From Bolinopsis microptera (Eukaryota > Ctenophora > Tentaculata > Lobata > Bolinopsidae), in NCBI RefSeq assembly GCF_026151205.1, contig NC_087076.1:20205919-20269918 (forward strand): a stretch of 64,000 nucleotides of DNA, given 5' to 3'. Position 1 is the stretch's first letter. Each line of letters begins with the position of its first letter. The notes under the pieces were generated by a model. It ran no database searches and was not told the DNA's origin. It saw only the letters and a list, made by a program, of their open reading frames with translations. Below, in pieces: positions 2,252 to 45,500 of the stretch. The position numbers and the translations under genes were made by a program.

Positions 2252-3144
2252 AGCTTCAGTCTGATCTTGACAAAGTCACTGAGTGGTCATCAAGAAACAA
2301 CATGGCACTACATGAGGATAAGTTTGAGTACATATGCCATCTTGCCAACAAACGTAATCCTCTCTATGAGCTTCCTTTTGTCCATGAACAGTTCCAATAC
2401 AGAACATCAACTGGTACTATACTCAGTCCTGTGGATCAGCTCCGTGATCTCGGTATAACAGTATCCAGTGATACGTCCTGGACATCACACATACGATCTA
2501 GTTGTGATAAAGCGAGGAAGATGGCAGCATGGGTATTCAGTGTCTTCCACTCTCGCAATACTGGTGTTATGTTAACACTATACAAGTCACTAGTCCGTAG
2601 CCACTTAGAGTATTGCTCTCCTCTGTGGAATCCGGCGAAAGTGTATGAAATTCAGGAGCTTGAAAGTGTACAAAGAACTTTCACTTCAAAGATCCATGGT
2701 TTACAGCATCTCCATTATTGGGATCGCCTAAAAACCCTGTCCCTCATGTCACTTCAGAGGCGCAGAGAACGTTACATTGTCATGCACATGTGGAAAATCC
2801 TACATGGTTTCACATCCAACGACCTTGAAGTACAGTTCACAGTAAATCCACGATTGGGTACCCTTGCTAAGGTTCCAGCTGTCCGTACAAAAAGCTCAGC
2901 TGCTCACCAGACTCTATATGAAACATCATTTGGTGTAATGGGTCCCAGACTCTGGAACTGTATACCTTCACACATACGTGCAGTCTCCAAACATGATGGC
3001 TTCAAGCATCATATGACGGCATTCATGCTTTCCTTGCCGGATAAACCGCCAATCCGGGGCTTCACATCACCGAACTCCAATTCTATACTGGACTGGCGTA
3101 ACGATCGAGAGGCATCTTCTCTCTGGGGTGGTCAGCAACTCTGA
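2252..3144 (+). mobile_element. Non-LTR retrotransposon (CR1/jockey-like) reverse transcriptase, 3' fragment
   Basis: An uninterrupted frame of about 297 codons covers the thumb and post-RT tail of a LINE-type reverse transcriptase. It starts in frame at the codons for LQSDLDKVTEW, just after an in-frame TAG, so the catalytic FADD region and endonuclease are missing (5' truncation). Family hallmarks seen in order are a DLGI block, KARKMAAW, MLTLYKSLVRSHLEYCSPLW, a YWDRL / MSLQRRRERY block, and the terminal LWN-x-IP-x-x-IR-AVS segment. The same order is found at 43102-43950, which is about half identical by eye. Intact reading with no stop suggests a fairly recent insertion or domesticated use; insertion is more likely. 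After the stop, ATCAAAGG repeats briefly (about 3170-3190), as in CR1-type 3' ends. Confidence 0.85.
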
Positions 3145-14994: not shown

Positions 14995-15434
14995 GTCAAA
15001 AGACCCACCCACCCCCTTTGCGGTACTAACTGTTTTTAAGGATAATAATTAAGACACCCACCCCTTTTGCCGGTACTAACTGTTGAGAAATCACGGTACT
15101 TACTGTGTCTTGGTATATAAAATAAGATACCCACCCATGAATTGCTTTAAACAGCTCATTAAACAATGGGAAATTGGCAAATTATACCCATTATTTAGTA
15201 GGGGTTTTGTTTTCAATGAAGTCGAATTAGTTACAAAGTTACAAAAACAAAATAAAAAAAAACCCGAAAAAAAGCTCAAAACCCATTCCCAAAATTGAAA
15301 TTTGAGGTAAAGTGGGTTTTTTTTGGGGTTGGACACCCCCTTTGTACCATGTACTAACTGTTTTTCTGGGAAATGTACCATGTACTAACTGTGTTTTGGA
15401 AGAAAATAATGACCCCCCCCCCCCCCCCCCCCCC
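14995..15434 (-). mobile_element. Poly-C bounded repeat element (candidate)
   Basis: The phrase GTACTAACTGT occurs four times (near 15025, 15076, 15350, 15382), with A/C-rich CACCCACCCC near the left part. The right edge is a 22-C run (15413-15434). Read from the other strand the edge is G(22) then TCATTATTTTC, which resembles the ends of the element at 42144-42577 and the G-run at 18665. The left border and target duplication were not found, so extent and mobility are inferred. Short frames on both strands are low-complexity artefacts. Confidence 0.45.
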
Positions 15435-17856: not shown

Positions 17857-18664
17857 TCTAATCGTAAGATTAACACGTGTAGTTCTATGAGGGCAGGGCA
17901 TCATCCAAAATTTATCAACATCAGTGCTTTTCTACGTCGTTACTTTGTTGGTACCATGTGAGCGTTCTTTTTATACATAATTGGTATATAATTCGCATGT
18001 TTTCCTTTTATTACGCAAATATAATATCCGTAGTGTTATATTAGACAATGAATGGACACACAAGTGTATCACAACAGAAGACCTTCTGTGGAAATTTGTT
18101 TTAAAACACTGCGAATTAAATATGGCTTACCAGAGTCTGGTAACCAGACGTCTGAGTTCTAAATAATATGGACTATTTACGACTCGCGTGTTTCAAATCA
18201 TGGGGGTAGAATTGCAACAACATAAATGGAAACAGTTTATATTGAAACATATTTAAATATTAACGTGCGGGAGGCAACCGCCATCTTTGCCAAAACGTAG
18301 TTGCTGTACCGACTGTGCTGCAGTAAAAAAGGGATCTTTCATGAGACCTTGGTACCTTGGTATCTACTATCTTGGTTAATGAAAATAGAGGGTCTAGATA
18401 TATCGAATTTGAGATCGACAGTCTGGAGATACTGGTAGTATATAATCCAGGAGGATCAGGGCCGTAACAGTACTATTAATACAGTTAACAGTAGTGTTAC
18501 AGAATGATATCAATATTATGTAGGTACCTTTTTATGAAGTCCTTCATTACAAGATTAATTCTTCAAAACCCATTCAGTTGCATGAGCCTTCAATGTAAAG
18601 ATGTAAAATTCTGAACAGTCAGCTCCGTAATACCCTACCTGAACGGTACCGGACAATGTTCCAA
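17857..18664. other. Intergenic, no gene recognised
   Basis: Nothing beyond background AT-rich sequence was seen. Confidence 0.4.
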
Positions 18665-18815
18665 GGGGGGGGGGGGGGGGGGGATCATGTTATTTTTTGT
18701 CCGTTTTTGTCCGTTTTTGTCCGTTAATTTTTGTCCGTTTTGAAAATATAGCTGCCAAACGGACAAAAACGGACAAAAACGGACAAAAACGGACAAAAAT
18801 TGTAACTTTTGATTT
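18665..18815 (+). mobile_element. Poly-G headed fold-back element (candidate)
   Basis: A run of 19 G (18665-18683) is followed by ATCATGTTATTTTTTGTCCG. Four TTTTTGTCCG units are then mirrored, after a 15-nt spacer, by four CGGACAAAAA units (to 18800). The right edge, CGGACAAAAATTGTAAC then TTTTGAT, complements the left edge approximately, but a matching C-run is absent. It probably belongs with the element at 42144-42577. Frames on both strands here are products of the repeats. Confidence 0.55.
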
Positions 18816-18867
18816 ACATTTTCTCCACAATTTGCCCTTCCAAGGCATATACTTGAGTAATGAGTAT

Positions 18868-41000: not shown

Positions 41001-42545
41001 CTCTGGCCTTTAAAAAATTGGCGGCCAAATTATGAAATTGTCAGCTTTGTCATCCCGTGTGATATGACAAATCCTGACGGCATTATTCCACGTACACAGT
41101 GAAAATGTTAAGAGCTGGTATGGGGCTATGGAGCTGGTATGAAGATATCAGTATACTTCTGGAGAACTGGATATGGATTGGAATGTTTGCAGGGATCCCC
41201 CCTTCTAAATAACCTGCCCCGAAACTAGAGGAATAACGAGATTACAATCAGACACTGACTAAAATCTAATCTATATAATTATAAGGGCACAAACCAAGAC
41301 AGAAGTAAACCAAGACATTGCACATTACCACAAGCATTGCACCCTTGATTATCTTGCTAACTGACGGGTTATAATAGCACTTTTGCGTTTGGTTTTAAGA
41401 ACTCGAAATTTAAGGCTTTTTGGTACGCAGTGTGTAAGACTTGATCTGCTATGAATGTACGGAATATCTTATCAGTAACCGTATTCACACTCAGAATTGA
41501 GTTTAGTCATTTTCCGATACGAGATTGGGGACGGGTTCTATAAACAAACAAACAAGGGTGAAGCCGCAATTTCATTTAAGAATATCTAAATGTTTCCTGA
41601 GAAAAGTCAGCCTTGTTTTCCGTTTCCACGAAATCTACAGTCACGTTACGTTCGGTAATATCTAAAAACGGTGGAAACGAGAAACTTACCTGTCTAGTGT
41701 CTATTCTCAGGAAATATGTTTAATAATGCTTCCGTTGCTTGTAAAGATTTTCTACTCTTCTTGCTTTGAACGTTTAATTGACAGTGTCGGATGTTGAGTT
41801 GCTGCAATTAATTCATTTCAACTTGCCGATTTTACTTTCTATATAATAAGTAACCAGTTATTTTCACTTGCTTATTTTAGTTGTTACTAAAGTAACCTGT
41901 AGAAACGACCTATGAGGATGGCAATTGATTTCCCAGGGTGGGTCTGTCCAGCACCATCGTGTGAGACCATGTTCAGATACAGGGCGGATATAGACAAGCA
42001 CTTAAGGTAAGTGAAACGTTATTTATTTTATGGTAAGCGGACCGAATTCCTAACGCCAACCTGTTCAATCAACCTTACCAACCCGGTTTCATGTATATAG
42101 TTTTATATTGTACCCGTTTCGATACTGTCCATACACTAAAATAGGGGGGGGGGGGGGGATCACGAGTATTTTAGAGAAGTTTTGAATCTGAAAATTCGAC
42201 CATTTTCGCCGGGAATACTCAAAACTGTCTCAAAAATTATTTTTGAATCTGAGAAATCAGCATGGATTTCTCATTTTCTCAAAAATTGTCCGCTCAAAAA
42301 TCATTTTTGAATCTGAGAAATCAGCATGGATTTCTCTTTTTCTCAAAAATTGTCCACTCAAAAATAGCGAGATACCAAATCATTCTTCATATCAGTGCAA
42401 TGTGGTCCAAAAATTTAAAATACTCAAAATCAATTTTTGAGAATGAGTTTTCGCCTCTCCTGGAAACTTTTCTCAAAAATACTCAAAAATAATTTTTTAA
42501 AATGAGAATTTGGTATTTTCGTCGGGACTCTCAAAAATAGTCATG

Positions 42546-42582
<37 letters not shown>

Positions 42583-45500
42583 TAAGTGAAATTGGGCACT
42601 TTGAGGATCAGGAACATAACACTAATATTTACGTGTAAATAGTAACCTCGAACAGTCAGGTTAAGATTAAATAAACCACAGGAGCTCACACAGGGGTGAA
42701 AGACACGTAACCTGCAAGCCAGGGTGTGATGAGGTCTTTACAACATACGACTCTCAGAACAAGGTTAGGAGGTTTACTGTTAGAGCTGGCTGGCAGAGTG
42801 GCAGGTTGCTGAGCTGGTGATCGAGAGGTTGCCAGTTCGAGTCTCAGCTAGGGCACCTTACTCAAGACTATTATTTACAATACTGTAGTTTCTCAGCTGT
42901 TTGAATTGATAGTATAAGATTATTGTTGTGTCTGAGTATATATCCTGGTATTTCAGCACGCACTGGCAGTTCACAGGACCAAATTTTACAAATGTAAGGA
43001 ATGTGTGAAAACCAAGGAGTTCGCAACCCGATACAGTAAGTACTAAGTTACAGCGATTACTAAGTTACAGTGATTACTAAGTTATAGTAAGTACTAAGTT
43101 AGTCCTAGGACCGATCCTATTTATTCTGTATATCAACGATGACTTGAACAGCATTAGCTATAGTAACGGATTCAGCTTTGCAGACGACACAAAGCTGATT
43201 GGGGCTATCCGAGGAATGAGTATTGAGTAGTGTGGAGTTACTGCAAGATGATCTGAACATAGTCATCGAGTGGTCACGTGTTAACAACATGGAGCTACAC
43301 GAACAGAAGTTTGAGGTTGTAAACTACCCCCTGAACGGATCAAAAGCTCTAAGAGAGCTCCCGTTCTACCCAGAGACTGTTGAGTATACTACACCAAAAG
43401 GACACTCAATATCACCACAGGAAACTGTCAGAGACCTTGGAGTGTATGTTAGCAGCAGTAGATCATGGGGTCCTCACATTGAGAAGACAGTTCAAGGAGC
43501 TAGAAAAATGGCGGCTTGGACATTGAGCGCCTTTAGAGACCGGTCACAAGTAGTCATATGCTGACTTTATACAAAAGCATGGTTCGCTCCAAGCTAGAGT
43601 ACTGCTGTCCAGTCTGGAACCCTGCAAAAGTCACAGAGATACAAAAGCTGAAGACTGTACAGAGATCCTTTACTAGAAAGATATCTGGCTGCCGTGATCT
43701 CCAGTACTGGGACAGGCTGAAGAAGCTTACGTTGATGTCACTTCAGAGGCGGAGAGAGCGTTATTCTATTATTCATGTATGGAAGATTCTTAATGAACAT
43801 GCTCCAAACGATACGGGCTTCGAGTTCAAGTCTCATCAAAGGCATGGTATTAAGGCAGAGATCCCAGCCATGAACAAAAGCGCACAGTTGTCTGTAAGAA
43901 CAGATTACGACAACAGCTTTAGAGTTAGAGCAGCTCAGCTCTTCAACGTACGTACGATTACTAAGTTACAATAAGTACTAAGTTACAGTGATTACTAAGT
44001 TACAGTGATAACTAAGTTACAGTGATAACTAAGTTACAGTTATAACAAAGTTACAGTGATAACTAAGTTACAGTGATAACTAAGTTACAGTGATTACTAA
44101 GTTACAGTAAGTACTAAAATATATTGATTCCGTTTAAAACGGAAGATATAATATCATTGGACACATTAACCTGGTCTATCATACTATAATTAAAGTATGC
44201 TTTGTTACGAAGGATCTTGGTAACTGAGATGAGCTTCTTCTATATTATTTAATAGTAGTTTATTATTAGTAGTAGTATAATTTCACCTCAGGACTGACAA
44301 GGCACAAGCAAGAAGTACACACTAGACGACGATTTGCGTGCGTTCTCTGTCACTTGAAGTTCAAACAGAGTAAGCCAAGCTAGTTAAATTACATATTATA
44401 TACACACAGGTGTTGGAAAGTGCTTATCTAAAATACTAAAATAAGGGTCTCATACTTCTGATCACATAATCTGTTAAACAGTTCAGATAATGTTGTGTAT
44501 CAAAATGTCACTGTTTCCTTGCGAGATTGAACAATGTTTTATTCAGATAATTTGTAAATATAATAAGCTCTCAGTACTGTTTATTATACATATCATATAA
44601 GTTATGTTATAAGTAAAAATTCTTATCTGTCAAATTATTCATTTATCTTCTAGGAGGACATTTGAAGAGGCACCTTCGGCAGATCCATCATCATAAATGG
44701 TGAGCAAAATATTTTGTAAGACGATCATTTGGCACACTCTAGATGGTCACTTAACGGTCATTTGGCACACTCTAGATGGTCACTTAACGGTCATTTGGCA
44801 CACTCTAGATGGTCACTTAACGGTCATTTGGCACACAAAATGATTCATGTATAATTTCTCCAGAGTCTAGTTTAGTTTCAAAATTCTCCTTAACCGATGA
44901 ACTTAGCATCATTCTACGACATGTTATAGTAACATTCTCCCAATCTTAAAACGGTATTTTCTCTAATAACTATCGGAATAACAATTAACATATTCCATCT
45001 GGTCTTTATTCTTTTATGACAATCTAGGCAAACTATATATAAATATATAATGATAAATATATAATGATAAATATAAGAAAAATAAACTTATTGTTAAACT
45101 TGTCGGCATATTGGGATTTTAAACACGTTTACGAATGTTAACAATGAACAATATGAAGCTAAGGATGGGAATCATATATAGGCGTCATGAAATAAAACAG
45201 AAAATCGATCCTGCTGAAACTTTAAAGTTAGCTTGTATATCATTATATTTAATCTATAAATGAAATTTCAATGGTTGCAAAAATAGAGATGCCAACTTAG
45301 CAACTCTGCTGATTTCTAACTAAATTTGCCATTCGGAGACATTATATTAACAAGTTTTCACAACTTCACTATTTAATTTGCTGTGCTAATCAAGAGCTAA
45401 CTAACTAGAAATCTTAGTTACTATCCTTGACAAAGAGAATGGTTTATAAGTTCTAAAGAAAACTTACTGAAATATATCAAAATATATGGCTTCAATAAGT

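Follow-up and report, generated by a model that had tools for sequence, protein, structure and literature searches.

Positions 42144-42577 of the window, i.e., the whole 64,000-nucleotide stretch of DNA analyzed here (C5:20205919-20269918), are probably a MITE-like, non-autonomous DNA transposon of 434 bp that belongs to a dispersed family and was mobilized in trans; its tip G tracts would be a mononucleotide microsatellite grown by slippage. The element matched non-autonomous terminal inverted repeat (TIR) transposons or MITEs in its TIRs, its short and near-fixed target-site duplication (TSD), its dispersal, its shortness and its absence of coding capacity; a list of open reading frames (ORFs) of at least 200 aa contained none over the element. 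All features named there by the initial annotation, i.e., G15, C31, an inverted subterminal sequence and TAAAATA outside both runs, were present (42137-42584; Table 1).

Table 1. Poly-G/poly-C runs of the window and features of its two elements with poly-G tips
Feature	Position	Strand	Basis
Long G/C runs of the window	15413-15434, 18665-18683, 42144-42158, 42547-42577		
Left TSD, TAAAATA	42137-42143	+	sequence; duplication also tested across family
Terminal G15 run, left tip of element	42144-42158	+	sequence
Left subterminal inverted repeat ATCACGAGTATTTTAGAGAA, family motif TCATGAGTATTTTTGAGA	42159-42178	+	sequence, motif search, random-pair test
AT-rich body, 388 bp	42159-42546	+	sequence
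Two 64-bp tandem copies within body, 95% alike	42229-42356	+	repeat comparison
Right subterminal inverted repeat, TCATGACTATTTTTGAGAG on minus strand	42528-42546	-	sequence, random-pair test
Terminal C31 run, right tip	42547-42577	+	sequence
Right TSD, TAAAATA	42578-42584	+	sequence
Left TTCCAA repeat of family-2 element	18659-18664	+	by eye
Family-2 copy, G19 ATCATGTTATTTTTTGTCCG ... TTTGCCC	18665-18837	+	sequence and copy comparison
Right TTCCAA repeat of family-2 element	18838-18843	+	by eye

With the runs included, the 34-nt inverted pair at the element ends was 88% complementary; without them, the subterminal 19-mers agreed at 15 of 19 positions, as compared to 14 for the best of 20,000 random pairs from the window. 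A 7-bp direct repeat at the element's spacing occurred in 0.55% of random placements. In the left TIR, G15 is separated from TCACGAG by an additional A. Where the target duplication ends is often ambiguous, as its final base could equally be a G of the run. As a single strand, the 448 nt from TSD to TSD, runs included, form a strong fold (z = -7.15, pairing of G15 with C31 counted in). Retroposition with a poly-C tail was ruled out, as the run occurs at both tips in inverted orientation. As evidence for a transposon, this single copy is suggestive; it is the family that is decisive.

The genome searched comprises 264.65 Mb in 232 contigs (approx. 258 Mb of it in 13 contigs of 15 - 26 Mb). A DNA search with the element gave 83 matches among the best 40 of 120 candidates, and, at a tolerance of 3 mismatches, the end motif matched the genome 128 times (65 + 63) as compared to once (1 + 0) for the reversed pattern, so that the earlier description of a mobile element is supported by dispersed copies. 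We fetched 88 loci of this family (family 1; 8 plus 80 of 83 planned). At the family tips, a short G tract precedes (A)TCATGAGTATTTTTGAGA.

Among the 27 two-ended family-1 copies, 13 were flanked by exact direct repeats of 6 bp or longer lying no more than 3 nt from the outer run edges, while swapping of flanks gave a mean of 0.54 and a maximum of 3.2 such repeats (500 rounds). Two of the repeat-bearing loci (L037 and L038) represent one duplicated insertion, leaving approx. 12 independent cases. The 14 copies without an exact 6-bp repeat include two with 5 bp as well as three (L010, L066 and L069) whose tips were misplaced in this test and which were scored as misses. Exact flanking repeats were mostly 6 or 7 bp, with some of 5 or 8 bp (e.g., TAAAATA, TAATTA (twice), TATTTA, TCTACA, ACTTTA and GATTTAT); in five copies a G lies directly right of the second repeat, so that the repeat is possibly 7 bp long, its final base having become part of the left run. 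The flanking sequence varies between copies, and in one of them (L045) a short TA repeat forms the left flank. Because exact repeats adjoin the outer run edges this much more often than under the null, the runs lie inside the target duplication, as had been proposed for the window copy. Further genomic copies with run ends and duplications were sought, and many were found. Insertion of the element into or between pre-existing poly-G tracts would suit a genome rich in poly-G; a target tract, however, would read alike on both sides and would lie outside the direct repeats, while here the two runs, one of G and one of C, are placed inside them, which refutes this explanation and leaves it with a negligible probability.

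Run length at a family-1 end was taken from the longest stretch of Gs in the 60 nt on its outer side, which gave values for 102 distinct ends (the G49 left tip of L057 was counted, while the G233 of the same locus, located beside a noise block, was left out of the evidence). At least 10 Gs were found at 61 of the 102 ends, 4 - 9 at 35 and fewer than 4 at 6. The lengths fall into two groups, 2 - 8 and 10 - 49, with exactly 9 at none of the 102 ends. Poly-G termini as the defining character of the family, an idea raised by the initial annotation, were thus not supported, as many ends carry short tracts and long G runs also occur in unrelated contexts (e.g., other repeats and minisatellites).

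A second family is represented in the window by a copy that looks like an internal-deletion derivative with its right tip shrunk to CCC. Family 2 had 932 candidates in the genome, of which the best 40, those scored, were 93 - 100% identical; this family is young and its architecture is the same as that of family 1. In fetched copies its tip reads G(n), then A or C, then TCATGTTATTTTTTGTCCG. Run lengths, measured in 36 of 37 copies, ranged from 4 (an interrupted run; L142, G6-T-G4, was entered as 4) to 43 with a median of 13; the remaining copy (L140) failed the pattern. In 13 copies with an identical 150-bp body, the G runs were 8, 9, 9, 9, 9, 10, 12, 14, 16, 20, 21, 23 and 25 bases long. Three full elements of 5,023, 3,701 and 2,074 bp carry tips of G23/C12, G20/C29 and G25/C47, respectively, and contain GGA-rich repeats; by eye, two of these are flanked by repeats (TCAATAC and AGGAAAC), while the third is without an exact repeat. 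GGA/GAGGA-rich internal repeats that differ in length from copy to copy were seen in three family-2 loci (L147-L149).

Eight further elements were selected as pairs of tips that face each other (family-2 tips in seven, family-1 tips in one). Exact abutting repeats of 6 - 7 bp were present in six of these (ATAACA, TAAATC, ACATTA, ATGTAAT, TAAGTA and GTCTTCC); of the other two, one shows a 5-bp repeat, TCTAT, while in the second, which nearly duplicates another element, there is a mismatch. With swapped flanks, 1 of 56 pairs reached 5 bp. One of four loci fetched around G15 places (L143, C1:638000-638500) reads ACTAATGT-G22 ... C17-ACTAATGT, with an exact 8-bp repeat, and is a possible third family with poly-G tips. 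At L091 (C1:107974-108774), a minimal element, AGTATAT-G32-ATTACTCATGAT-C24-AGTATAT places a 12-bp core between two runs within a 7-bp repeat. In the window, the C22 run at 15413-15434 follows ...GAAAATAATGA and has the look of a right tip that belongs to another repeat (15317-15434), which perhaps starts at 15317 with a 5-bp AAAGT repeat; by eye, two other loci (L089 and L165) contain sequence akin to this stretch, with G runs.

For 12 pairs of similar loci, sequence likeness was assessed after the runs had been collapsed; 5 pairs were at least 99% alike (4 dispersed and 1 tandem array). In the first dispersed pair (L013/L014) the runs were C29 and C23 and the remaining 942 of 942 positions were identical; the other three showed G27 and G8 (L084/L085), 25 and 43 (L111/L115) and 26 and 24 bases (L048/L049, in which interrupted short runs were equal). 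Among pairs with lower similarity (both 95%), C11 was found in both L018 and L019, while L034 carries C22 and L035 no long run. Because near-identical duplicated loci differ in run length, length changes after insertion, and tail addition during transposition, one of two explanations offered earlier, is therefore not needed. The other, slippage, fits the run-length variation best.

It is also conceivable that the runs are made at transposition, i.e., that end processing or gap repair adds or re-copies Gs and so sets a new length in one step. The very different runs on copies with identical bodies and the placement of the run between duplication and TIR agree with such a step, as does a weak correlation in length between left and right runs, which would not be expected if the two slipped independently (rho = 0.37, P = 0.055, n = 28; rho = 0.65, P = 0.06, n = 9; rho = 0.06, n = 23, when both ends have at least 4). 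However, lengths also differ between duplicated loci that share one insertion, 4 - 8 Gs are kept at many tips, and long G runs occur within other repeats and minisatellites, where there is no transposition step. We thus regard this explanation as quite improbable.

Some of the variation might instead reflect the assembly, if the true tips were short and poly-G had been inserted by a weak consensus or, during polishing, by reads that turned dark on meeting a hairpin and were called as G there. Reads entering a hairpin from either flank would yield exactly G on the left and C on the right, and the element does fold strongly. Moreover, the Bolinopsis assembly that is the probable source was built with wtdbg, so homopolymer lengths may be wrong; the passage of its description that states this also names pilon. 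Homopolymer-inflated blocks exist as well: at L104-L106 (parts of C1:584,817-589,269) and at L057 (C6) from position 521, which includes G233, the sequence is senseless and is probably assembly noise. These blocks, however, inflate all four bases, while the tips are affected in G/C only and have clean sequence on either side. Interruptions within runs are inherited by duplicated copies (C7-G-C5-T-C5 is common to L048 and L049, whose relative L047 has C22 in place of the interrupted run, and GGGGT is common to L037 and L038). A rough gauge of assembly noise is provided by the pair L155/L156, which is one tandem array (C1:8,855,558-8,858,580) of approx. 351-bp units with two steady C runs each (C15-C18 and C8-C10; the long run was C15-C18 in 8 of 8 units); where the two were aligned, the lengths of six runs differ by no more than 1, so consensus noise of 6 - 19 bases is not usual. 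Runs were also found in minisatellites and in sequence without a visible hairpin, and long poly-G tracts are established in C. elegans (PMC2211496). Overall, an artefactual origin seems unlikely. Not every run is unstable, as indicated by this array and by the C11 of L018 and L019.

Under the favored explanation, slippage, a transposase acting in trans would have moved the element, and a terminal tract of approx. 4 - 8 Gs would behave as a mononucleotide microsatellite that, past roughly 9 Gs, would grow and fluctuate through replication slippage. This slippage would be set in a poly-G-prone genome, in which poly-G is present at many non-element places. The run is part of the element without being a fixed sequence, and transposition would tolerate its varying length. 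The family-1 lengths suggest a threshold near 9 Gs; family 2, with five of 36 runs of exactly 9, lacks the gap at this length and does not sharpen the threshold. A more speculative extension, to which we give a rather low probability, is that poly-G of any length is a working tip: the transposase would recognize the subterminal repeats and cut at the edge of the unstable G tract (perhaps via a quadruplex), so that at least two families with differing bodies share G(n)-TCATG tips, and each insertion would seed two fast-mutating G tracts that add to the poly-G load.

That load is high. The genome contains 14,669 G runs of at least 15 and 9,555 of at least 18 bases (36 per Mb), with 3,959 of exactly 10 and 1,297 of exactly 18; A runs of at least 15 number 2,444, and many of the 100 listed sit in noise blocks. 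In the window, where A+T exceeds G+C, G/C runs reach 6 and then, after a gap from 7 to 14, recur at 15, 19, 22 and 31, while A/T runs reach 10. The pattern G12-V-TCATG (V = A, C or G) had 211 genome matches as compared to 17 for the reversed pattern, a count that leaves out tips with an interrupted run or with T in the V position; even allowing for such uncounted tips, G(n)-TCATG tips account for only a small share of the poly-G load. For example, 20 consecutive entries of exactly G18 on C1 included one family-2 tip, the rest being, by eye, other repeats, a minisatellite and unclassed sequence. In Caenorhabditis, poly-G/poly-C tracts are likewise dispersed G runs of at least 18 bases in great excess over chance; C. 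elegans has 396 of these in 100 Mb (PMC2211496), which makes the 9,555 in 264.65 Mb found here approx. 9 times denser. The words "transpos" and "repeat" are absent from the main text of that paper.

Several loci show poly-G in other arrangements. At C5:339,130-340,804, seven G12-ATCATG words lie on one strand inside 1.7 kb, perhaps a tandem array grown out of a transposon tip. At approx. positions 743-1164 of L005 (C3:545512-548875) there is a minisatellite with units of approx. CAACTATTACACG, each ending in a C run of varying length. Nearly bare G/C runs between direct repeats of 6 - 10 bp were seen at L090 (8 bp), L103 (10 bp), L062 and L166, the first two being striking and resembling minimal insertions. 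Bare G runs are nevertheless not claimed to be minimal insertions in general: repeats of at least 6 bp flanked 8 of 51 runs as compared to 0.71 expected, but 5 of these 8 are units of the L005 minisatellite. When 19 clustered runs were removed from the random-locus sets, 1 of 42 had a flanking repeat as compared to 0.38 expected, which is no clear excess; L103 is among the 42 yet was missed, as its run was not extended across its interruption.

MITEs of the hAT superfamily have TIRs, short non-coding bodies, 8-bp duplications and CAG-type tips. The present elements share the TIRs and the short non-coding bodies, while the 8-bp duplications and CAG-type tips of hAT MITEs were not seen; two 8-bp readings borrow bases from the run, and L143 has an exact 8-bp repeat. 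Domains of hAT transposases are abundant in the genome (profile search; best 150 of 366 candidates scored), and the present tips with a G run were found at none of the 8 such loci examined. A profile search of the genome with PF21787 gave no match, and its controls likewise gave none. By eye, no transposase-like ORF was apparent in the one full family-2 element with ORFs listed. No autonomous partner or transposase was thus linked to the elements by the PF21787 search, which had no working controls, or at the 8 of 366 hAT candidates. A 280-aa ORF elsewhere in the window (2302-3144) resembles, by eye, the end of a retrotransposon reverse transcriptase, with no Pfam match at 0.001.

Dada DNA transposons have 6 - 7-bp target duplications and use small RNA genes as targets, and Dada-U6 and Dada-U1 are without TIRs (PMC3706591). 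Duplications of 6 - 7 bp are common to both, while the present elements have clear TIRs and varied flanks. ARAGORN calls no tRNA in the 64-kb window; a stretch at 42789-42860 is, by eye, tRNA-like (SINE-like) with GGTTGCCAGTTCGAGTC. The combination of 6 - 7-bp repeats with TIRs fits neither hAT nor Dada as defined.

The closest likeness was found in the pineapple Ac-mMITE, a non-autonomous element in which the outermost bases of the TIRs, GA at the start and TC at the end, have grown into microsatellites; the resulting (GA)n 5' tip and (TC)n 3' tip have been ascribed to replication slippage after insertion (PMC8449440). Extension of terminal TIR bases into a microsatellite is likewise seen in the present families. 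The pineapple tracts, on the other hand, are dinucleotide and present in a minority of copies (22 and 16.5%), the main flanking repeat is the targeted (TA)n, and the element is called Mutator-like, with 9/10-bp duplications (PMC8449440); the present elements carry mononucleotide G, reach at least 10 Gs at most family-1 tips and have 6 - 7-bp duplications, and neither (TA)n insertion nor Mutator-like 9/10-bp duplications characterize them. Among the matches listed for open-access literature, no transposons with poly-G tips were described in titles or abstract beginnings, which is weak as proof of absence, and those listed for ctenophores described no homopolymers or MITEs of this kind. The kind of process is therefore already known from pineapple (PMC8449440), while poly-G at most tips of two families and the genome-wide density were not met in the titles and abstract beginnings listed.

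No part of a transposon is normally as constant as its tips; here, young copies that share one body carry outermost runs of between 8 and 25 bases. The variable tips offer a test of how much of the tip a transposase needs, and the many near-identical loci that differ in run length represent a natural assay of G-tract slippage. With its density of long G runs, this genome is a candidate model for the tolerance of poly-G by an animal.
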